From an uncultured bacterium (GTDB lineage: Bacteria > Patescibacteriota > Minisyncoccia > Phycocordibacterales > CAINVO01), in the NCBI GenBank assembly GCA_903854195.1, contig CAINVO010000013.1, positions 1-40,552 of the forward strand: a stretch of 40,552 bases of DNA, in the 5' to 3' direction. The position numbers and the translations under genes were made by a program. Below the pieces are notes generated by a model. It did not search any database, was not told the origin of the DNA, and saw only the letters and a program-made list of their open reading frames with translations. Positions within the stretch are counted from its first letter, which is position 1. Each line of letters begins with the position of its first letter. Of the stretch, positions 25,841 to 37,256 are shown one piece after another.

Positions 25841-26524
25841 ATGAATAAAATTTCCTGCATAATTTGCGCCTATAATGAAGAAAAAAGAATTTGGCTTGTT
25901 TTAAATGCTTTAAAAGATCATCCTGATATTTCAGAAGTCATTGTTGTAAATGATGGGTCTACAGACGACACAACTAATATTGTTGAACAGTATGATTTTG
26001 TAAAACTTATATCATTTGAAAAAAATCAGGGGAAAAGTAAGGCAATGTCTGCAGGAATTAATGCTGCGCAAAACGATATATTGATGTTTCTTGATGCAGA
26101 TATTTTAACAATCACACCAACTGAAATATCTGAACTTGCAAAGCCTGTACTAGAAAATAAAGCTGATGTAACTTTCAGTCTCAGAAAAAATAGTCTTTGG
26201 ATTTACAGACAACTTGGACTTGATTTTGTATCAGGAGAAAGGGTGATAGCTAAGAAATATTTTGATAATCAAACCGAGGAGATGTCTTCCCTACCAGGAT
26301 TCGGAGTAGAAGTATTTATGAATAGAATAATAATCAAAAACAAACTAAGACTTCAAAGTATTGATTGGAAAAATGTATTAGTTGCAAGAAAATCAGCTAA
26401 ACTTGGATTCTGGATGGGCTTTAAAGGTGAACTCAAAATGATAAGACAAATTCACAAAGTGGCATCATTTAAAGAGATGCTTACTCAAAATTTTGAGCTT
26501 CTAAAACTTGTAGGCAAAAAATAG
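25841..26524 (+). CDS. Family 2 glycosyltransferase, short form
   Basis: GT-A fold transferase of 227 aa. The N-terminus SCIICAYNEEKRIWLVL (about 4-20), VVNDGSTDDT (about 36-45), the KNQGKSKAMSAGI loop, and the metal-binding DAD (about 85-87) are the standard GT2 elements. There is no membrane helix and no QxxRW motif, so it probably transfers single sugars to a lipid or protein acceptor on the cytoplasmic side. The acceptor is unknown. It is transcribed alone, convergent with the GT4 gene. The first gene of the envelope-related right third. Confidence 0.88.
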   Translation: MNKISCIICAYNEEKRIWLVLNALKDHPDISEVIVVNDGSTDDTTNIVEQYDFVKLISFEKNQGKSKAMSAGINAAQNDILMFLDADILTITPTEISELAKPVLENKADVTFSLRKNSLWIYRQLGLDFVSGERVIAKKYFDNQTEEMSSLPGFGVEVFMNRIIIKNKLRLQSIDWKNVLVARKSAKLGFWMGFKGELKMIRQIHKVASFKEMLTQNFELLKLVGKK

Positions 26525-26535
26525 ATTCGACAGTA

Positions 26536-26598
26536 AAAGTAAAATGAAACAAATAAATGTAGGAAATAGTTGCAACTAACTATTTATTATTTTACTTT
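26536..26598. terminator. Nested inverted repeat between convergent glycosyltransferase genes
   Basis: Inner stem AAATAGTT/AACTATTT (26564-26571 and 26578-26585, loop GCAACT) within outer arms AAAGTAAAAT/ATTTTACTTT (26536-26545 and 26589-26598). The outer right arm overlaps the last codons of the GT4 gene. An AT-rich bidirectional terminator is the likely role. Confidence 0.45.
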
Positions 26599-27606
26599 AA
26601 CAAGGCCTAGAATAAACATCTCTAGAGATGTTTCCCATGAATAAGTTAACGCTTTTTTTCTACAACTATCTGCCGACAAACCAACACAAGCAAGAGCAGC
26701 TTTTGACAAGTCCTCATCCATGTATCCATCAACACCTTGAGTTATAATATCGACAGGTCCCATAACTTTATGTGCAGCAACAGGAAGACCACACGACATA
26801 GACTCTATAATTGTTAGACCGAAGGTATCAGTTTTTGAAGGAAAAACCATAACATCGCACAAGGAAATCAGATCTACCAACTCCTGACCTCTTACACATC
26901 CTACAAAATGAAAATCTTTGCCGTATTTTTTTTCTAATTTTTTTCTATCTGGACCATCACCAATTACAATTTTTTTACCAGGCAGTGAACATTTTAGAAA
27001 CTCCTCAACATCCTTCTCAGTTGCAATTCTTCCCAAATAAAAAAAGATTGGTTCGTCAATATTTATTAAATATTCTGGCACATGAGCTCTAGTATTTTTA
27101 GTAAACAAATTAGTATCAACTCCATATGGCCACATAGCCACTCTTTTAAAGCCACGGCTTTCAAGCTCATTTTTTAAGCTTTCACTGCAAACCATAACCC
27201 TCTCTCCTGCATTATGAAACCATCGTAGATATCCATATGTTGCATTAAAAAGAGCACCTACACGCAATTTTATATAATGAGGAAAATGAGTGTGATATGA
27301 AGTTGTAAATTTTAACCCTGCTTTCATACACACAGCTCTACCAGCAAAACCTAGTAAACCTTCTGTGACAATATGTACATAATCAGGATTTTCTTTTTTT
27401 AAAATTTTTCTTATTTTATTACGAGTCATCAAAGGCATCTTTATTTCAGGATAAAATGGCATAGGGACAGTAAAAAACAATCCGGGATGAATGACCGTAA
27501 CAGAAAAATCATTCTGTTTCAGTAGCCCAATAATCTTCTCCAAGATAGTCATCACCCCGTTCACCTGGGGATGCCAAACATCAGTAATAATGACAATTTT
27601 TCTCAT
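26587..27606 (-). CDS. Family 4 glycosyltransferase
   Basis: GT-B fold retaining transferase, 339 aa. The N-terminal glycine motif (DVWHPQVNGVMTILEK), FTTSYHTHFPHY (near 99), PYGVDTNLF, FFYLGRIATEKDVEEFLK, and the C-terminal donor-binding SKTDTFGLTIIESMSCGLPV (two conserved Glu/Gly elements near 258-275) fit the family. It resembles mannosyl- or glycolipid-forming enzymes of the MgtA/PimB/SQD2 type, so glycolipid synthesis is plausible; the sugar cannot be told. Its ATG is 12 nt after the stop of the DedA gene, so the two form an operon. Confidence 0.9.
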   Translation of the reverse strand: MRKIVIITDVWHPQVNGVMTILEKIIGLLKQNDFSVTVIHPGLFFTVPMPFYPEIKMPLMTRNKIRKILKKENPDYVHIVTEGLLGFAGRAVCMKAGLKFTTSYHTHFPHYIKLRVGALFNATYGYLRWFHNAGERVMVCSESLKNELESRGFKRVAMWPYGVDTNLFTKNTRAHVPEYLINIDEPIFFYLGRIATEKDVEEFLKCSLPGKKIVIGDGPDRKKLEKKYGKDFHFVGCVRGQELVDLISLCDVMVFPSKTDTFGLTIIESMSCGLPVAAHKVMGPVDIITQGVDGYMDEDLSKAALACVGLSADSCRKKALTYSWETSLEMFILGLVKVK

Positions 27607-27618
27607 ATAATTAATTAC

Positions 27619-28221
27619 TTATTTTTCAATATCACTAAAATTTTTCTTTGTGATATATTTTTTAAAATAAAAATACAGGGCAAGCAATCCAAAGGATACG
27701 AGCAACCAAACAATAGCAAAATAACCTAAGTATGTATTTATAAGTAAATAGGCTCTTCCAAAATAAAAACCAACTATCATAAGCAATATTACTTTTGGAA
27801 CTGTTCCGACTATATTATAAAAAACAAATCTTGAAAAAGAGACCAGAGAAAGTCCTGCTGTAAACAAAATAACTGATCCCATAGCCTGAGTCTTACCAAA
27901 CAAAAGAATTTTCCAATCATGTTTATTAAAATGCTTCTCAAGAGCTGAAACTCTCTTTTCAGTTACCCCAATATAACGTCCAACATGTTTTATAGCCTTT
28001 CTACCTCCATATCGTCCTATAAAATAATAAATTGAATCCCCCACAAGGTCACCAAACACAAGAACAAGAAAAACTATATATAGATTAAAAACACCAGTTG
28101 ATACCAAAAAACCGGAAAGAACTGATATTATTGGACCTTCAACAACAGCAATAGGAAAAACCATCAAGTACCTATATTGTGTCAAAAGTAGGAATATTTC
28201 GGTGAGAGATAGATTAAGCAA
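27619..28221 (-). CDS. DedA/SNARE-associated family membrane protein
   Basis: About 200 aa with five or so hydrophobic segments. The family core is visible: FPIAVVEGPIISVLSGFLVSTG, then GDLVGDSIYYFIGRYGGRKAI, the cytoplasmic VSALEKHFNKHDWKILLFGKTQAMGSVILFTAGLS segment, and C-terminal helices. DedA proteins are lipid scramblases or flippases (undecaprenyl phosphate or phosphatidylethanolamine in studied members). Co-transcription with a GT4 glycosyltransferase fits lipid-carrier traffic in envelope synthesis. The start is TTG 28221; a later ATG (residue 20) is possible but would remove the first helix. Confidence 0.9.
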   Translation of the reverse strand: MLNLSLTEIFLLLTQYRYLMVFPIAVVEGPIISVLSGFLVSTGVFNLYIVFLVLVFGDLVGDSIYYFIGRYGGRKAIKHVGRYIGVTEKRVSALEKHFNKHDWKILLFGKTQAMGSVILFTAGLSLVSFSRFVFYNIVGTVPKVILLMIVGFYFGRAYLLINTYLGYFAIVWLLVSFGLLALYFYFKKYITKKNFSDIEK

Positions 28222-28308: not shown

Positions 28309-29283
28309 ATGAAAAATAATAAAAAAACTTACTATCCTTCAAGTATCATCATGAGCGCCATATATTGTGCTGCAGTACTCATAGCCTTTCCACAAAACAT
28401 TTTTGCTTATACACCATCCATTTCATCAATAACGTCGACTGCCAATATTCCTGGTATTTTAAAAGAGGGTGATCAAATAGTTTTTACACTTACACCACTG
28501 GACCCAGCACCAAACGCAAGCATTTCTGGGTTCTACAATGGCAATAGATTAAACTGGAGCACTTCAAATGGTGGGTCAACATATCAAGCCGGTTATAGTG
28601 TTTTGTCAACTGACTCAAACCAAAGCACCCCTCTACAAATAATAAATGTTACCCTTACTGACTCAAACGGAAACACAAGTAATTCTGTATCTGGATATGA
28701 TATTAAAGAGACAATAGCTGCTCACGGGGCAACACTTACAACAGCCACCTCTGTTCCATCAATAGTTAATACTGCCACACCAAGCTACACATTTATTTCA
28801 GATGAAGCCGGCACAATAACTTATTTAGGCGACTGTACAGGACAAACAACAAGTGCGATAGTTGGGTCAAATACTATTACATTTAAGCCACTCAATAATG
28901 GAATTCACAACAATTGTTATTTAGGGGTTGTTGATTTAGCTGGCAATGGAAGCACCTATCTTTCAATTAACCCCTTCACTGTACAAAATGTCACTTCAAC
29001 AACACAAAACGCGGCACCGAATACAACCCTGAGCAACGAAACGGCCGCCAAACCATCAGGTGTCCTAACTTTTATTCACCCCCTCTCACTTGGATCAAAA
29101 GGTAATGATGTCACACTCCTTCAAAAAAGATTAAAAGCAGATGGATTCTATTCTGGACCAATCACACAATACTTTGGACCACTAACAAAAGTTGCTGTGA
29201 AAAAATATCAGGCACATTTCAAACTTACACAGCTTGGATCAGTTGGACCAGGAACTAGGGCACTGCTAAATCAAGGAAAATAA
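28309..29283 (+). CDS. Secreted protein with C-terminal peptidoglycan-binding domain
   Basis: 324 aa. The N-terminus has a signal peptide or anchor (hydrophobic about 12-30, ending near NIFAYTPS). The middle (about 35-245) is rich in Ser/Thr/Asn and beta-prone, with Ig- or bacterial-adhesin-like character (GDQIVFTLTPLDPAP, AGTITYLGDCTG). The last 60 residues form a PG_binding_1 domain (GSKGNDVTLLQKRLKADGFY...GPLTKVAVKKYQ...VGPGTRALLN). A very similar domain ends the deacetylase at 31551. It is probably held at the cell wall, exposing the middle region. TATAAT at 28274-28279 gives a leader of about 23 nt. Confidence 0.85.
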   Translation: MKNNKKTYYPSSIIMSAIYCAAVLIAFPQNIFAYTPSISSITSTANIPGILKEGDQIVFTLTPLDPAPNASISGFYNGNRLNWSTSNGGSTYQAGYSVLSTDSNQSTPLQIINVTLTDSNGNTSNSVSGYDIKETIAAHGATLTTATSVPSIVNTATPSYTFISDEAGTITYLGDCTGQTTSAIVGSNTITFKPLNNGIHNNCYLGVVDLAGNGSTYLSINPFTVQNVTSTTQNAAPNTTLSNETAAKPSGVLTFIHPLSLGSKGNDVTLLQKRLKADGFYSGPITQYFGPLTKVAVKKYQAHFKLTQLGSVGPGTRALLNQGK

Positions 29284-30518: not shown

Positions 30519-31547
30519 CTAAGGAATAACAGACCTAAAAGCTTGGAGTGAAGCATTGTCGGAATTTATCTCCCAGTCTTCCTCTTTATCATAATTAAAC
30601 CAGACCCAACCTTTTATTGATGGATACTTTTGAGAAATATTTCCTAATCCATCGTAAATCCACTCGGCTTTTTCTGAACCAGCAGCAGAAGCTGTTGATA
30701 ATATATATAGTGGTTTGTCAAAAATGGAAACGTTTTTAATTGCAATAGAAAATAATTGATCAAAGGTTTGCCATGGGGAGCCATAATTAAATCCACTCAA
30801 ACCAACATAATCAACATATGCATTTCCAGGATAATAAACCTCAAATTTGTTATCTATAGTATCTGGGATGGACTCATTATTATAATCAATTGCAAATTTA
30901 ACATTAGGAACATCGACAAAATAATTATGAACATACTGCCACGCAGCCACAAATTTTTTGGCCGAATTTCCATTTTTACCATATCCCCAAGCCTCCTCAT
31001 TAAGGTTCATTTCTGGAAAAGGTACTAAAATTATAGGTTTGCCGTACATTTTGGCTGCACTCGCAAAACTTTGTATATCTTTATCATGACTAGAATCCAA
31101 AACATTATCATAACCAAACTCTGGCTCCCAAAAGATGAGCAAAGTTTTACCAGAGTTTCCAACCGAATTTAATAGTTCTGTTGGAAAATCATCATTCCAT
31201 CCTACAAACACTGCCAAAATATCAACTTTCTTACCAACTAGTGTTTCAAAGCTTGGTAAATTTTTAATTCCATCTCCAACATAGCTACCCCATTGAATAG
31301 CAGTAGGTGAAGTACTTGCGAATGACAATACTTTTTGTTGACCACCTGGCTCATCTTTGACTTGCACTTGTGCTTGTACCTGTGTCTGATTTTGTACTTG
31401 TGCTTGTACTTGTTGCGACGACCCTTCAGGATTTTTAAATTGGTTACTCAATACATACTTTCTATAAATGTCATTATGCACAAGAAAAATAGAGATTAAA
31501 ACAATAGCAATCAGCAATAAATTTATTTCTAGAAAGTATGTTCTCAT
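30519..31547 (-). CDS. Membrane-anchored GH26-like protein, putative nucleophile lost
   Basis: 342 aa. An N-terminal membrane anchor (about 6-24) and a Gln/Val-rich repeat linker (about 44-65) precede a GH26/beta-mannanase-like barrel (about 83-342). The acid/base region VPFPEMNLNEEAWGYG keeps Glu. Further family marks are FAIDYNNESIPD, YYPGNAYVDYVGLSGFNYGSPW, and GWVWFNYDKEEDWEINSD. The strand that normally carries the nucleophile (family pattern KPIMIAE[FT]GS) reads KPLYILSTASAAGSEKAEWI, with Ser instead of Glu. It may bind rather than cut polysaccharide. It is the last gene of the operon, 3 nt after the deacetylase stop, and a paralogue of 36057-37214. Confidence 0.8.
   Translation of the reverse strand: MRTYFLEINLLLIAIVLISIFLVHNDIYRKYVLSNQFKNPEGSSQQVQAQVQNQTQVQAQVQVKDEPGGQQKVLSFASTSPTAIQWGSYVGDGIKNLPSFETLVGKKVDILAVFVGWNDDFPTELLNSVGNSGKTLLIFWEPEFGYDNVLDSSHDKDIQSFASAAKMYGKPIILVPFPEMNLNEEAWGYGKNGNSAKKFVAAWQYVHNYFVDVPNVKFAIDYNNESIPDTIDNKFEVYYPGNAYVDYVGLSGFNYGSPWQTFDQLFSIAIKNVSIFDKPLYILSTASAAGSEKAEWIYDGLGNISQKYPSIKGWVWFNYDKEEDWEINSDNASLQAFRSVIP
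31361..31415 (-). repeat. Short tandem repeat encoding a Gln-Val/Ala-Gln linker
   Basis: Imperfect repeats of GTACTTGTGCTT-type units encode alternating VQAQVQ residues in the linker of the GH26-like protein. Such repeats change length easily, which would vary the distance between the membrane anchor and the sugar-binding domain. Confidence 0.6.
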
Positions 31548-31550
31548 TGA

Positions 31551-34397
31551 TTATTTATTTAAGGATGCTCTTGTTGCAGGCCCGACTATACCCACAGAGC
31601 TTATGTGCTTGTATTTCTGATAGGCTTTTACAGCAGCAAGGGTGCTTGAGCCAAAATATCCTGTATTTGTTGGATAGCTATAAAATCCTCCGTTACGTAA
31701 TCTCTTTTGAAGTTCAACAACATCATTGCTATGCATTCCAAGATTAAGATTTTTTGCAAAATAGAATGTAGTTGCTCCCAAAACCTGACCAGGTTTTAAT
31801 AGGTTTTTATTTTTCAAAATGTCACCACTATCAGGAATTGTTGAGGTTGAAACTCTCTTACCTCCTCCAACACTTTTTATGTTTGAAGTATTTTGATATA
31901 AAACCCCTCCCCCCGTAAATCCACTTCCTCCGCTTCCACTACTTCCGCCATTACCACCACTTGGTACACCCCCACTAGTACTTGTCGCATCAGTCGTCGT
32001 ACTTGTTGTAGCCCCCGTTGTTGTACCGGTTGTTGTTGGCGTAGTGCTAGAAGTAATTGCTACCAATTCAGAACTAATAGATTCCAATGAGTCATGTGAG
32101 ATAACCCTAAAATAATATGAAGTTGCAGGTAGTAAATTGTTTACCGTAACTATGTGACTTGTAGTTGCTGCAGCATTTTCAATTGTTGAGGAAGCATAAT
32201 TATAATTAGGTGATGAGCTTGCAACTGAGTGAGAAACAGTATCAAACACTACCCTACTTGTTGCGTTATGATCAGTCGTCCAATTCACAGTAAAAGACGT
32301 ATCTGTTGAGCTAGCTACTTTTACAGCACCTATAATTGGCGCCAAAGTTACTGGAACTGGACTTGCTGACATTAATGAAATACCTTCACCCACTGTATGA
32401 ACTGGGACATTAGTATTATCCAAATATGTCAGAATACCATCTAAAATTGCTGGAGTCGTGCCGTATGGTTCATCAACTAAATTATTTTGCACATTGTGAA
32501 ATACGAGCACAAGCCAATTTCGATTAGCCTTGGCTGCATCAATCCATGATTCCACCTGAGACAAGGTTGTACTTGATGTGACCGACTGTGCAAGTAGTCC
32601 AAATTTATCTGTATTAATTCCGTTGTATCCTGGAATCACTGATCTACCAGAAGTTAAACCCGATGAACTTACAACCTGCTCAACGCTTTGATTATAATTT
32701 CCATAAGGATATGCAAACGATAAAATTGAAGACAGGCCAGCGCTCAATAAGTCTTGTCTTCCTCCTGATATTTCTGATATCAATTGAGTTGGACTAACAA
32801 GGATTAAATCCTTGTGTGATTGGGTATGGGCGCCAATTTCTTGTCCATCGCTTTGCAGATTGAGCAAGTCTGCCAAGGTCATATATTCACCAACACCAAA
32901 AGTAACATCATCAATAGTTAACGAACCAACACCTACCAAACGCTGAAGAACAGAAACGGTTTTTACATCTGGAGGTACATAAAAATATGCTTGTGTCTGT
33001 GTCCAAATATCTCCTGATGGAGGAATTTGTATAGTGTCAGTATTTAGGTCCACTCCATTTACATCAAAGACCTCTGCATTTTGAATTGTTCCACTTGCAT
33101 TAGTAAATTGAGCAACTAAAGTTGAACTACCTGTGCTTTTATAGTACCCACTATAGTTATATATATTATCTGGAAGAACCGTAATTGGATTAAAATACCA
33201 ACCAACATTACTGTTAGTAGTTGATGCAATAACTGAAGCGGCAAGACCTACATGCCCTGTCACTGGATAAAGAAAAGTAGAACTTGCACTTCCAGTCTTT
33301 TGCCAACCTAGCGGTTTACTAGGATCACTTGGATCAACAGTCTCGAGTGATGGGTTTGGAATGGATAGTCCAGACACTACATGTGATATGACATAAAATG
33401 TCCCCTTCTTATTATGAGTATCCAAAATTGGTTTCGCAGATAAAAATTGAGATTTCAAACTATCATCAAATGAAAGGGAAACAAATCCATTACTAAAAGG
33501 TATTGGTAATGGCATTTCGATCAAACTTGCATTATCAACTGACAATGATCCATTTGATGCAATAGTATGAAATACTGTGGCATATGAAGCTCCGACAGGT
33601 ACAGTAAATGAACCTGATCCAGCCATCCACACATGGGCAGGTGTTGACGGTAAAGTTATGAAACCGTCATATGACAAGTGAACATGGTTAGAATCAAAAA
33701 ACTCAAAAATCAGTTCCGTTGGAACATTAGAAATATAAGCATCAGTAAATGTGTATCTTCTACCAACTGTCACAGGCACAGGATTAAAATACCATTTTGC
33801 ATCTCCGGAACTATATGCTGACATATTAATACTTGCAGCTTTACCACTTGAAAGCTCCGCACCCGAACTTGAAGCGTCAGTAAATGGATATACAAATTGG
33901 GCGGTGTTTGTTCCAAAATTTCCAGTTAACCATCCAAGTGGTAAAGACGAATTATTAGGATCAGCAACTTCAAATGTCGGATTCTGAATAATGTTTGGGG
34001 GAACAACACCAGACTGACTAGCTGGAAAATCTTGAAGAGTTATTGTACAAGTAGCGTTACCACCAGCCATCAGGGTACTTGAGCAGTCTGGTGAAAGTGA
34101 AGCTGCGTAAGAAAATCCAGGGTTTACTGATACAGAATAAGGAGATCCAATATCAACTGTTACATCTGTTCCTGAAGAACTTCCTGCAAATGATCCAGGA
34201 TTTGCGTTTGCGCCGTCAACGTGAACATTAAAATTAGACGCGGTGCTAGTTTGCCCATTAGTATTTATCACATTAGTAACAACGTGAAGGGTTGAAACCC
34301 CAGCCGCCAAGGTTGGGAAAGATCCAAAAACAATAGAAGCAATTATTACTAAAGTGTATGTTTTAAAAAAAATGGAGAATAAGTATTTTATTTTCAT
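31551..34397 (-). CDS. Large secreted multi-domain polysaccharide deacetylase
   Basis: 948 aa. A signal peptide (about 1-31) precedes an N-terminal beta region and a carbohydrate-binding-like module starting NPTFEVADPNNSSLPLGW (about 140-290). A NodB/CE4 deacetylase has motif 1 SFDD near 309, motif 2 HTQSH near 520, motif 3 AYPYG near 567, and motif 5 LVFHN near 635. A second copy of the module (NPSLETVDPSDPSKPLGW, about 345-500) is inserted between motifs 1 and 2. A fibronectin-III-like domain (about 685-780), a Thr then Gly/Ser-rich linker, and a PG_binding_1 domain (last 65 residues) follow. The catalytic and metal residues are present, so it is probably active on an N-acetylated polymer such as poly-GlcNAc or peptidoglycan. 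Third gene of the operon. Confidence 0.88.
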   Translation of the reverse strand: MKIKYLFSIFFKTYTLVIIASIVFGSFPTLAAGVSTLHVVTNVINTNGQTSTASNFNVHVDGANANPGSFAGSSSGTDVTVDIGSPYSVSVNPGFSYAASLSPDCSSTLMAGGNATCTITLQDFPASQSGVVPPNIIQNPTFEVADPNNSSLPLGWLTGNFGTNTAQFVYPFTDASSSGAELSSGKAASINMSAYSSGDAKWYFNPVPVTVGRRYTFTDAYISNVPTELIFEFFDSNHVHLSYDGFITLPSTPAHVWMAGSGSFTVPVGASYATVFHTIASNGSLSVDNASLIEMPLPIPFSNGFVSLSFDDSLKSQFLSAKPILDTHNKKGTFYVISHVVSGLSIPNPSLETVDPSDPSKPLGWQKTGSASSTFLYPVTGHVGLAASVIASTTNSNVGWYFNPITVLPDNIYNYSGYYKSTGSSTLVAQFTNASGTIQNAEVFDVNGVDLNTDTIQIPPSGDIWTQTQAYFYVPPDVKTVSVLQRLVGVGSLTIDDVTFGVGEYMTLADLLNLQSDGQEIGAHTQSHKDLILVSPTQLISEISGGRQDLLSAGLSSILSFAYPYGNYNQSVEQVVSSSGLTSGRSVIPGYNGINTDKFGLLAQSVTSSTTLSQVESWIDAAKANRNWLVLVFHNVQNNLVDEPYGTTPAILDGILTYLDNTNVPVHTVGEGISLMSASPVPVTLAPIIGAVKVASSTDTSFTVNWTTDHNATSRVVFDTVSHSVASSSPNYNYASSTIENAAATTSHIVTVNNLLPATSYYFRVISHDSLESISSELVAITSSTTPTTTGTTTGATTSTTTDATSTSGGVPSGGNGGSSGSGGSGFTGGGVLYQNTSNIKSVGGGKRVSTSTIPDSGDILKNKNLLKPGQVLGATTFYFAKNLNLGMHSNDVVELQKRLRNGGFYSYPTNTGYFGSSTLAAVKAYQKYKHISSVGIVGPATRASLNK

Positions 34398-34455
34398 ATT
34401 TTTGTTTTTTTATTTTAATAATTAAAACGACTTTGATTAAAAATCCTCAGTAAAA

Positions 34456-34851
34456 CTATCCAGAATAAAACAAAGGTGAACTTTCTGCATAAAAGTTTCG
34501 AACACCGTATTTAGTATTATTTGCCTTTACCCAATCCCTAAAAATTTCATCTTGCCCCCCATTTCTCATGACTGAATCAAGACTCGGAATAATATTTGTA
34601 GTTTTAGACATCATATGACTAATAAATAGCAATGATGAATACTTGTCATTAAGTCCTATGTCCAACAAAAATGCTGCATTCCCAATTACAACCACAAAAA
34701 CACTAGCGACAATTAAATTTGAAAAAAAACGTTTAGGAACAACAATAACTTTAGCTATTTTTGAAGGCTCACTTCTCTGAAAAAAACGGCAATACAAAAT
34801 GATACAGAGATGAACAATAATTGATAATCCTAGGAAAGGTGTAAATGGCAT
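34456..34851 (-). CDS. Small two-helix membrane protein between synthase and deacetylase
   Basis: 131 aa, not recognised. Hydrophobic helices at about 5-22 and 45-65 flank a basic loop (RFFQRSEPSKIAKVIVVPKRFF); the remaining 65 residues are polar and probably outside. It starts 8 nt after the GT2 synthase stop and precedes the deacetylase by 58 nt. Its position and topology resemble the small accessory subunits IcaD/PgaD of poly-GlcNAc synthases, but I see no sequence match, so this is inference from context. Confidence 0.65.
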   Translation of the reverse strand: MPFTPFLGLSIIVHLCIILYCRFFQRSEPSKIAKVIVVPKRFFSNLIVASVFVVVIGNAAFLLDIGLNDKYSSLLFISHMMSKTTNIIPSLDSVMRNGGQDEIFRDWVKANNTKYGVRNFYAESSPLFYSG

Positions 34852-34859
34852 AGTAGTAA

Positions 34860-35894
34860 TTAGGTTAATTTAATATCGATGCGCTCTGGCTTGAACCATA
34901 CTAAGTTTTTACGACCCAATATCACTTCAACAAAAAATTGTTCAAGATAAACATAAGCATTAACGAACATAAGAATTGTGTATGGAAATGGAACTAAAAT
35001 TAATTTCCACCTTTTCTCGTGCCATGCAGCCCAAACAGCAAAAAACATACCTGCAACAAAATATCCTATAAAAAGAAACAGTCCGAACATTATATTTAGT
35101 ATTGGTAATATAAAAATAAGCATAGAAAAAACTAAGCCCTCAGAATAAATGAGGGCTAGTTCGAATGCACGCACTGACTGGGTGCTAATTATTTTGTGGT
35201 GTTTAACGAGGTTTTGCCAACCTCCCCCAAACCACCGCCGCATTTGATTTATATAATTCTTTAAATCTGCGGGGTCTTGTGTGTATGAAATAGCCCTTTG
35301 GTTATAACAAATTTTACAATTTTTATAGTGTAATTTATAAGTAAAATCTAGGTCTTCAGTTATAGTGTCGTGGTCAAATGTAATATATTTTTTAAAAATT
35401 TTTGTACGAAAAGCACTAGCTGCACCTGGCATAACAAATATGTAATGCATATAATTTTGCGCCAGTTTATGAATATTTTGTCCGATAACATAATCGAAGG
35501 CTCTACAAAGAGTCAACCAATTATATGGAAGACTTTTTACATACCCAGCAACAGCAACAACATTCTTATCCTTAAAACTTTTTATTATTTCCTCTGCAAA
35601 TTTTGGATCAAGCAATGTATCTGCGTCAGTTGTAACTACAATATCTCCAGTTATAAAATTTAATCCATATTCCTGAGCGCTACTTTTATTTCCAGTGTTT
35701 TTAGGTGTTCTTTTAACAATAATCCGATCAGAATATCTAGCTAGAATTTCAGGTGTACAGTCCTTTGAGCAGTCATCGACAAATACAATTTCATCAAATT
35801 TATGAGTTTGAGAGAGGCATGACAAAACTGAAGCCTCTATAGACTTTTCCTCGTTGTAGCATGGTACTAATAGTGATATTTTTGATATTTTCAT
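34860..35894 (-). CDS. Processive family 2 glycosyltransferase (polysaccharide synthase)
   Basis: 344 aa membrane synthase of the PgaC/IcaA/hyaluronan-synthase type. The N-terminal GT-A domain has SLLVPCYNEEKSIEASV, VDDCSKD near 40, the metal-binding DAD (about 92-94), the acceptor motif TEDLDF near 180, and the processivity motif QMRRW (QxxRW) near 218. Three or four membrane helices follow (about 245-320). There is no N-terminal membrane helix. QxxRW and TED indicate chain-forming activity, probably extruding a beta-linked polymer. First gene of a four-gene operon that also holds a deacetylase and a GH26-like protein. A GATAAT-like -10 lies upstream, but no convincing -35. Confidence 0.9.
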   Translation of the reverse strand: MKISKISLLVPCYNEEKSIEASVLSCLSQTHKFDEIVFVDDCSKDCTPEILARYSDRIIVKRTPKNTGNKSSAQEYGLNFITGDIVVTTDADTLLDPKFAEEIIKSFKDKNVVAVAGYVKSLPYNWLTLCRAFDYVIGQNIHKLAQNYMHYIFVMPGAASAFRTKIFKKYITFDHDTITEDLDFTYKLHYKNCKICYNQRAISYTQDPADLKNYINQMRRWFGGGWQNLVKHHKIISTQSVRAFELALIYSEGLVFSMLIFILPILNIMFGLFLFIGYFVAGMFFAVWAAWHEKRWKLILVPFPYTILMFVNAYVYLEQFFVEVILGRKNLVWFKPERIDIKLT

Positions 35895-35984
35895 AAAAAT
35901 AATGCAAATTCAAATTATCAAATAGAAAGCGGAACATGGTACAGCTGTAGACGTAGCATGTCTAACTTTATTACAAAACACAAC

Positions 35985-36014
35985 AAAAAAGACAACAAAT
36001 TTGTTGTCTTTTTT
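35985..36014 (-). terminator. Terminator of the upstream GH26-like gene
   Basis: A perfect palindrome: AAAAAAGACAAC and its complement around AAATTT. It ends transcription of 36057-37214 and separates it from the GT2-led operon. Confidence 0.88.
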
Positions 36015-36056
36015 GCTTATTTTTAGCCTTATTTTACTGATTACAAACCGTGGACA

Positions 36057-37214
36057 TTAAGGAAGGATTGTTTTAAATGCTGCAAGGGATGCGGCATCTG
36101 AATTAACTCTCCAATCCTCTTCTTTGTTGTCATTAAACCAAAGCCAACCTTTTACATTTGGATAGCTTTTCAAGAATGACCCAAGTCCAGTACTAATCCA
36201 AGAGGCTTTTTGTGTGCCAGGTCCAGAAGCCAAAGCTAAAAGATAGATTGGCTTATTAAACTGAGAGGCTTCACTCAATGCCCCACTAAATACCTGAGAG
36301 AACGACTGCCATGGATTACCGAAGTTGTATCCATCAATACCAACGTAGTCAACATAATTAGCACCAGGATAATACGCCGCAAATGTATTGTCTGAAGTAC
36401 TTGGAATTGAAACATTATTGTAGTCAATTGCAAACTTCACATTAGACACACCTGCAAACAAATCATGAACGTGATCCCATGCTGCAATAAACTTTGCAGG
36501 AGTATTGCCGTTCTGACCATATCCCCAAGCTTCTTCGTTTAGATTCATTTCATCAAACGGCACAAGAATGACGGGATAACCGTATGATTTTGCCCCTGCA
36601 GCAAATTGTTTAATGCTGCTATCTTGACTACCATTTATAATTGAATCAAATCCAGTGCTTGGTTCCCAAAAGACAACTAAAGTTTTAGACTGCTGACCAA
36701 CCTTAGATGACAAGGCTGTTGGAAATGGAGCATCAAATGCTTCAAAGTCAGAGACCATGTTCATTTTCTTACCTACCAATGTTTCAAAGTCTGTGATTGC
36801 TGTTGACCCATCACCGACGTACGCACCCCATTGTAAGGAAGTCCCTACTGTTACAGGCGGAGTTACAACCACGGGTGGAGTAACAACTGGTGGAACAACA
36901 ATAGGATATTTAACTATTGCTGGCGGGTTAGTGATAAAAACTGTTGTGAAAGTTCCTGATGTCTGACTAGTTCCACTGTTTACTCCTGTTGAAGGAATAC
37001 TTGGTACATTATGAAACCCATTAGTACTTCCTGATGAAGTTATGTGTGAATAATTTTGATTAGCTGAATAATTACTTTTACTCTGTGAATAATATCGTGA
37101 TTGAGCCTCCGCTACTGGTGAAACTGCTGGAAGAATTGAGACTATTACTAACATTAAACTGATAAAAAAAGGATTAAGGAATATCCTGACCTTGCTGTTT
37201 GTATTTTTTTTCAT
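36057..37214 (-). CDS. Secreted GH26-like protein, paralogue of 30519-31547, nucleophile lost
   Basis: 385 aa from ATG 37214 (MKKNTNSK); the frame is open to 37256, but the later start gives a standard signal peptide (helix about 15-33, cleavage near VAEAQS). A Tyr/Ser/Asn-rich segment and a Pro/Val/Thr-rich linker precede a GH26-like barrel (about 150-385). The acid/base Glu is kept in VPFDEMNLNEEAWGYG; YYPGANYVDYVGIDGYNFGNPW and WLWFNDNKEEDWRVNSD are family marks. The nucleophile strand reads KPIYLLALASGPGTQKASWI, with Ala in place of Glu. No membrane anchor remains after signal cleavage, unlike the paralogue. It has its own terminator. Confidence 0.82.
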   Translation of the reverse strand: MKKNTNSKVRIFLNPFFISLMLVIVSILPAVSPVAEAQSRYYSQSKSNYSANQNYSHITSSGSTNGFHNVPSIPSTGVNSGTSQTSGTFTTVFITNPPAIVKYPIVVPPVVTPPVVVTPPVTVGTSLQWGAYVGDGSTAITDFETLVGKKMNMVSDFEAFDAPFPTALSSKVGQQSKTLVVFWEPSTGFDSIINGSQDSSIKQFAAGAKSYGYPVILVPFDEMNLNEEAWGYGQNGNTPAKFIAAWDHVHDLFAGVSNVKFAIDYNNVSIPSTSDNTFAAYYPGANYVDYVGIDGYNFGNPWQSFSQVFSGALSEASQFNKPIYLLALASGPGTQKASWISTGLGSFLKSYPNVKGWLWFNDNKEEDWRVNSDAASLAAFKTILP

Positions 37215-37256
37215 ACTCGAAAAGCTTATCAGGCCACAAATGAATGTAAACATCAA

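Follow-up and report, generated by a model that had tools for sequence, protein, structure and literature searches.

What kind of system is encoded by a cluster of glycan-related genes in an uncultured Patescibacterium, and what do GH26-like proteins do in it? These questions are raised by the window analysed here, a 40,552-nucleotide stretch comprising positions 1 to 40,552 of contig CAINVO010000013.1. The source genome is an 814 kb draft in 45 contigs, 94% complete, and its kin are Patescibacteria. Examination of the open reading frames confirmed five ORFs, all on the minus strand. A GT2 synthase of 344 amino acids (34860..35894) is followed by a two-TM partner protein of 131 amino acids (34456..34851), a secreted CE4 deacetylase of 948 amino acids (31551..34397) and a membrane-anchored GH26-like protein (P0001; 30519..31547), with intervening gaps of 8, 58 and 3 nucleotides respectively. 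A second, secreted GH26-like protein (P0005; 36057..37214) is encoded upstream; its ORF opens with a TTG at 37256, but the ATG at 37214 is the likelier start, since the signal peptide begins directly after it. Comparison with the ORFs, Pfam and PDB showed that the coordinates, gaps and domain calls of the initial annotation were all correct. A terminator-like hairpin with 16 pairs and a T-rich tail (35982..36017, minus strand) separates the GT2 operon from the upstream GH26 gene, so this gene is probably transcribed on its own; the hairpin is a pattern match only, seven such sites occurring in the region where 4.7 are expected.

Several other genes lie near the cassette. A few kilobases away, a small GT2 (25841-26524, plus strand) and a GT4-type glycosyltransferase (26587-27606, minus strand) adjoin a gene for a VTT-domain membrane protein (27619-28221). 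Directly past the cassette end, on the opposite strand, a secreted protein (28309-29283, plus strand) carries a C-terminal PG_binding_1 domain of the same kind as that of the cassette CE4.

The synthase was characterized by profile, motif and structure comparison. It matched PF00535 (1.4e-30), and its best curated match was TIGR03937, PgaC_IcaA (1.8e-37), at 129 bits where the equivalog cut-off is 422, so that identity with IcaA or PgaC was not established by this model. TIGR03937 matched all 46 GT2s collected (best E 3.4e-45) and scored far above CelA in them. The window protein carries D90xD92, E180D181 and Q217MRRW, and residues D45, D90, D92, E180, D181, Q217, R220 and W221 were invariant across the 46 sequences. 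In its predicted model (pLDDT 94.5), a GT-A domain on the cytoplasmic side is followed by three helices at the C-terminus, there is no N-terminal TM segment, and the top 12 fold matches were hyaluronan synthases. The D, DxD, (T)ED and QxxRW motifs, the C-terminal TM helices and the hyaluronan-synthase-like fold mark the protein as a GT2 synthase of the processive type, as originally proposed.

The CE4 protein matched PF01522 (6.3e-14) and, at its C-terminus, PG_binding_1 (PF01471, 4.5e-12). The HfsH model matched at 3.9e-22, below its cut-off, and the IcaB equivalog model at only 0.0046. Both catalytic motifs are intact (motif 1, FDD, with D311 and D312; motif 2, HTQSH, from residue 524). An insertion of approximately 210 residues, part of which forms a jelly-roll (CBM_4_9-like) domain, interrupts the CE4 fold between them. 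Another jelly-roll of this type lies N-terminally, and the protein also has an fn3-like part. The cassette thus possesses the extracytoplasmic CE4 deacetylase with intact motifs that is looked for in a PNAG system. In a related genome (G019), the CE4 protein (L011:12063-15305) has a weak terminal dockerin match (PF00404, 0.0065), and 6 nucleotides after its gene lies that of a secreted, C-terminally anchored protein that is cohesin-like by eye, with no Pfam cohesin match; this pair is perhaps an alternative way to hold the deacetylase at the cell.

The small protein between these two enzymes had been likened to IcaD and PgaD. No NCBIfam family matched the window protein, and none was common to the 28 members of its family; homology to IcaD/PgaD was therefore dropped, the likeness being limited to size and two TM segments. 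A short membrane-protein ORF follows the GT2 gene in nearly all relatives, usually at a distance of -3 to +24 nucleotides. The window protein has the N-terminal motif TPFxGLSxxxHxxII, and GLSxxxH is found in most of the others. In the relatives the loop between the two segments is rich in Lys and Arg (238 K/R versus 57 D/E). From this loop, and from a domain expected to lie outside the cell, we infer an N-out/C-out topology, which also speaks against kinship with IcaD/PgaD. In ten loci (L067, L069-L071, L076, L078-L080, L082 and L084) the place of the two-TM protein is taken by a domain of DUF2334/CE4-like type, usually as a fusion with one or two TM helices; PF10096 was checked in two of these (1.1e-15 and 3e-14), and the others were assigned by motif and BLAST clustering. 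The synthase partners of all these loci form a new family, some of whose members have a deacetylase-like domain. A further arrangement was seen in L062 (11047-17079), L064, L055, L031 and L032, where the protein that follows the two-TM protein begins with a glucose/sorbosone-dehydrogenase-like propeller, along with PKD and CBM_4_9 domains; L055 and L062 have it as a fusion with the two-TM part.

To determine how widely the cassette is conserved, 84,980 species genomes were scanned with a GT2 profile. The scan returned 45 close loci (L041-L085), all titled as Patescibacterial lineages or simply as 'bacterium', along with five distant matches from Acidobacteria or Terriglobia at 23-26% identity. 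The order GT2, two-TM protein, CE4 recurs in dozens of Patescibacterial relatives and so is not due to chance; lack of conservation would have told against the initial annotation, and the opposite was observed. In G019, from a different family of the same order, two GH26-like genes accompany a GT2 (76% identical), a two-TM protein and a CE4. Wherever 3 kb or more of downstream sequence was available (35 loci), a CE4, its CBM-like domain or a DUF2334-type deacetylase was present without exception. Where at least 3 kb was covered on both sides, cassette-type GH26 (GH26-S) genes were present in 17 of 30 loci and GH18 genes in 3 of 30. Many loci lack a GH26 gene near the GT2, which indicates that the cassette can do without one. 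When genomes were sampled at class level, the GT2 clade was found in 6 of 384 and strong GH26 matches in 4 of 384, with three genomes in common, a co-occurrence with a Fisher P of 8e-6, or 4e-4 without the window genome, in small samples that include the query genome. One genome picked up through its GH26-S protein (G065) also encodes the GT2, on another contig, while another (G441) has GH26-S and no close GT2. A strict division into a type with GH26 and a stand-alone partner and a type with GH18 and DUF2334 was considered and abandoned; it is only a tendency, broken by L080, and neither type forms a clade on the GT2 tree. No further recurrent family of the IcaC or PgaA kind was found within 7 kb of the GT2.

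Both GH26-like proteins matched PF02156 above the Pfam cut-off (2e-4 and 7.9e-6). P0005 aligned with Clostridium thermocellum Lic26A (CtLic26A) over 258 residues (1.4e-40), and its model (pLDDT 94) superimposed on that enzyme with a TM-score of 0.91-0.92 at 36% identity, so that fold and family profile agree. The acid/base Glu is retained in both proteins (E179 in P0001; E236 in P0005, numbered from the TTG), in all 41 aligned GH26 sequences and in 29 of 29 clade members. The catalytic nucleophile Glu, on the other hand, is replaced by S284 in P0001, by A341 in P0005 and by Ser in the other clade members; in the 41-sequence alignment, cassette-type proteins have Ser (n=30) or Ala (n=1) at this position. 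The register of the alignment is supported by 2cip, a Michaelis complex whose sequence has Gln for the wild-type Glu at exactly this position. In clan GH-A the Tyr of strand beta-6 touches the nucleophile. Here, Ser at the nucleophile position was accompanied by Phe at the Tyr position in 28 of 28 sequences (F253 in P0001), whereas of 36 sequences with nucleophile Glu, 30 had Tyr. P0005, the Ala protein, keeps its Tyr (Y310). The acid/base Glu, ExN and a cleft Trp are near-invariant, and cleft residues remain conserved in the GH26-S clade.

The nucleophile was present in 36 of 36 aligned GH26 sequences from outside the clade, and GH26 proteins of Patescibacterial genomes without the GT2 likewise keep it. 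With the nucleophile column masked, its loss mapped to one clade with 100/99 support and took a single change, a result shared by all 200 bootstrap trees, and this clade held after the addition of outside sequences (SH-aLRT 98). These data indicate that the GH26-S proteins descend, as one clade, from a Lic26A-type GH26. The loss is particular to the Patescibacterial clade within the GH26 sampled, which came only from Patescibacteria, plasmids, phages and the PDB. No close relatives of the cassette GH26 were found in viral contigs; one distant phage GH26 was found, with an intact nucleophile. One locus (L052:14825-19914) has three GH26 genes: one retains the nucleophile Glu, and the other two are of the Ser type, with extreme divergence in one of these. 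The residue preceding the acid/base Glu was considered as a mark of altered substrate and dropped, as it is variable outside the clade as well.

Several features suggest which sugar is polymerized, and we lean towards GlcNAc as the probable building block. PgaC_IcaA is the best curated match, and the partners are of the CE4 and DUF2334 types. Four sister loci contain GH18 genes, in one case directly upstream of the GT2, and GlmU-N-like genes were seen close to the GT2 in four loci, at a distance of 83 nucleotides upstream in one. The genome itself has MurA without any NTP_transferase family member (GlmU, GalU) in its 94% complete draft. MurA implies that UDP-GlcNAc is made. The GH18-like proteins belong to DUF2334-type cassettes (L082:8-1177, L069:7002-8123, L078:15888-17090 and L084:7551-8702); PF00704 matched that of L082 (1.5e-18), the other three were assigned by similarity to it, and DxDxE is visible in three. 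Counting against GlcNAc are the lack of a recognizable GlmU in the same genome, the restriction of GH18 to a minority of loci, and the activity of the nearest GH26 of known function on beta-glucan. That enzyme, a beta-1,3-1,4-glucanase, together with the membership of bacterial mixed-linkage glucan synthases in GT2 (PMC10374906), could point to a glucan, for example mixed-linkage beta-glucan, with O-acetyl groups or wall peptidoglycan as the CE4 substrate. We consider this improbable, given the ranking of PgaC_IcaA far above CelA, a deacetylase in 35 of 35 loci, a genome apparently without GalU but with MurA, and a glucanase active site that has been abandoned.

Taken together, the genes most likely build, trim and display a surface sugar polymer across Patescibacteria, and the 'hydrolase' of the cassette probably serves to hold that polymer, or else cleaves it in an unusual way. 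The reading to which we give somewhat better than even chances is a conserved Patescibacterial synthase-dependent exopolysaccharide cassette in which the GH26-derived partner binds the polymer and is not a retaining hydrolase. The GT2 would polymerize a beta-linked hexosamine polymer on the cytoplasmic face, probably from UDP-GlcNAc, and the chain would be extruded through the helices of the GT2 itself together with the two-TM partner. The secreted CE4, held in the wall by PG_binding_1 and equipped with CBM-like domains, would deacetylate the emerging polymer. Both GH26-derived proteins, the TM-anchored and the secreted one, would bind the nascent or partly deacetylated chain in what was once their substrate cleft and keep it on the cell surface. 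Such a cassette may serve adhesion or an epibiotic lifestyle. This reading is weakened by the invariant acid/base Glu, which is more than a pure binder obviously needs, and by G441, where GH26-S occurs with no close GT2.

GH18, GH20 and GH85 enzymes use substrate-assisted catalysis, with the 2-acetamido group as nucleophile. The GH26-S proteins could do the same, the acetamido group of GlcNAc replacing the lost carboxylate and the Glu acting as acid/base, and thereby trim or release the polymer. We hold this to be the less likely role, binding being the most likely, yet it is the main rival: the near-invariance of the acid/base Glu, ExN and cleft Trp, the GH18 proteins of the four sister cassettes and a predicted GlcNAc-based polymer all fit it. 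Against it, GH18 and GH20 depend on a Tyr for holding the acetamido group, where GH26-S has Phe at the beta-6 Tyr position, and no conserved Asp directly precedes the acid/base Glu. We know of no such mechanism in clan GH-A. The evolutionary form of this proposal, that a GH26 lineage linked to a GlcNAc-polymer synthase exchanged its enzymic nucleophile for 2-acetamido assistance and became an endo-hydrolase or transglycosidase for a CPR-conserved surface polymer, we put forward a shade more tentatively; if true, it would mean that the catalytic mechanism has changed within clan GH-A.

It is also conceivable that the CE4 and GH26-like proteins act on wall glycans of a host or neighbour and that the GT2 is a separate system adjacent by accident. 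The secreted, wall-anchored architecture, the lifestyle of Patescibacteria and the occurrence of GH26-S away from the GT2 (G065, G441) are in keeping with this; the conserved linkage, the near-overlapping GT2 and partner genes and the fusion of a deacetylase-like domain to the two-TM partner make it very unlikely. Least credible of all is the proposal in the initial annotation, that a GH26 fold simply replaces the PgaB hydrolase domain as an ordinary retaining enzyme. Intact GH26 genes do accompany GT2 genes in Deinococcus taeanensis, Salinirubellus salinus and phage GX15bay. The Patescibacterial clade, however, has Ser or Ala at the nucleophile position throughout, from Adlerbacteria to Dojkabacteria, and most of its members have lost the Tyr neighbour as well; the missing carboxylate contradicts conventional retaining hydrolysis unless another residue serves, and we rejected an ordinary GH26 hydrolase on this ground.

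The envelope biology and host contact of Patescibacteria are poorly known, and the cassette offers a defined, testable surface-glycan system for the huge, mostly uncultured Candidate Phyla Radiation. For one Patescibacterium in culture, an EPS locus with no known kinship to the cassette was reported to be essential or relevant to growth (PMC10633639). Loss of the nucleophile is clean, of single origin and found in a glycosidase still attached to a synthase operon, so that ordinary assays could decide between a binding protein and a changed mechanism. Neither the cassette nor a nucleophile-less GH26 was found described in the literature searched, which is weak evidence of novelty as most subscription journals lay outside the search.

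Among known systems, hyaluronan synthases (8smn, 7sp7) have the solved fold nearest to the GT2 model (TMq 0.69-0.82), at 14-18% identity; the model is shorter and lacks N-terminal TM helices. In the cellulose synthase systems BcsA-BcsZ and CcsA-CcsZ, compared from the literature only, a processive GT2 likewise has its own secreted partner of glycosidase type, but the partner is an active enzyme of another hydrolase family and there is no deacetylase core (PMC7710045). On plasmids of Deinococcus taeanensis and the haloarchaeon Salinirubellus salinus and in phage GX15bay, a synthase-type GT2 gene overlaps a GH26 gene, an indication that this pairing recurs outside Patescibacteria. These GT2s are of other subfamilies (Deinococcus nearest, 33%), no deacetylase is annotated beside them, and all three GH26 proteins retain the nucleophile Glu and Tyr; the existence of such intact pairs makes a GH26 hydrolase partnering a synthase a plausible ancestral state. 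The lichenase Lic26A (2bvd, 2vi0, 2cip) shares the full-domain fold, acid/base Glu and cleft residues with the cassette proteins, but is a free glucanase, whereas the cassette GH26 adjoins a synthase operon, with the nucleophile Glu changed to Ser or Ala and the beta-6 Tyr to Phe in all but one. With icaADBC and pgaABCD, which make poly-beta-1,6-GlcNAc, the cassette has in common a GT2 nearest PgaC/IcaA, a small two-TM partner and an extracytoplasmic CE4, and pga carries a glycosidase domain as the cassette carries a GH26-derived protein. It differs in a synthase well under the equivalog cut-off and without the N-terminal TM pair, a partner unrelated by sequence and apparently N-out/C-out, no IcaC among recurrent neighbours within 7 kb of the GT2, and CBM and wall-binding domains on the CE4. 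A GH26-derived protein stands where PgaB has its C-terminal hydrolase domain, a domain absent in ica (PMC7112194). The ica/pga-like character first proposed thus holds for the GT2, the small membrane partner and the CE4, while neither IcaD/PgaD kinship nor GH26 as a plain replacement hydrolase is supported; by sequence tests, the cassette is ica/pga-like in its logic and not a member of that group.
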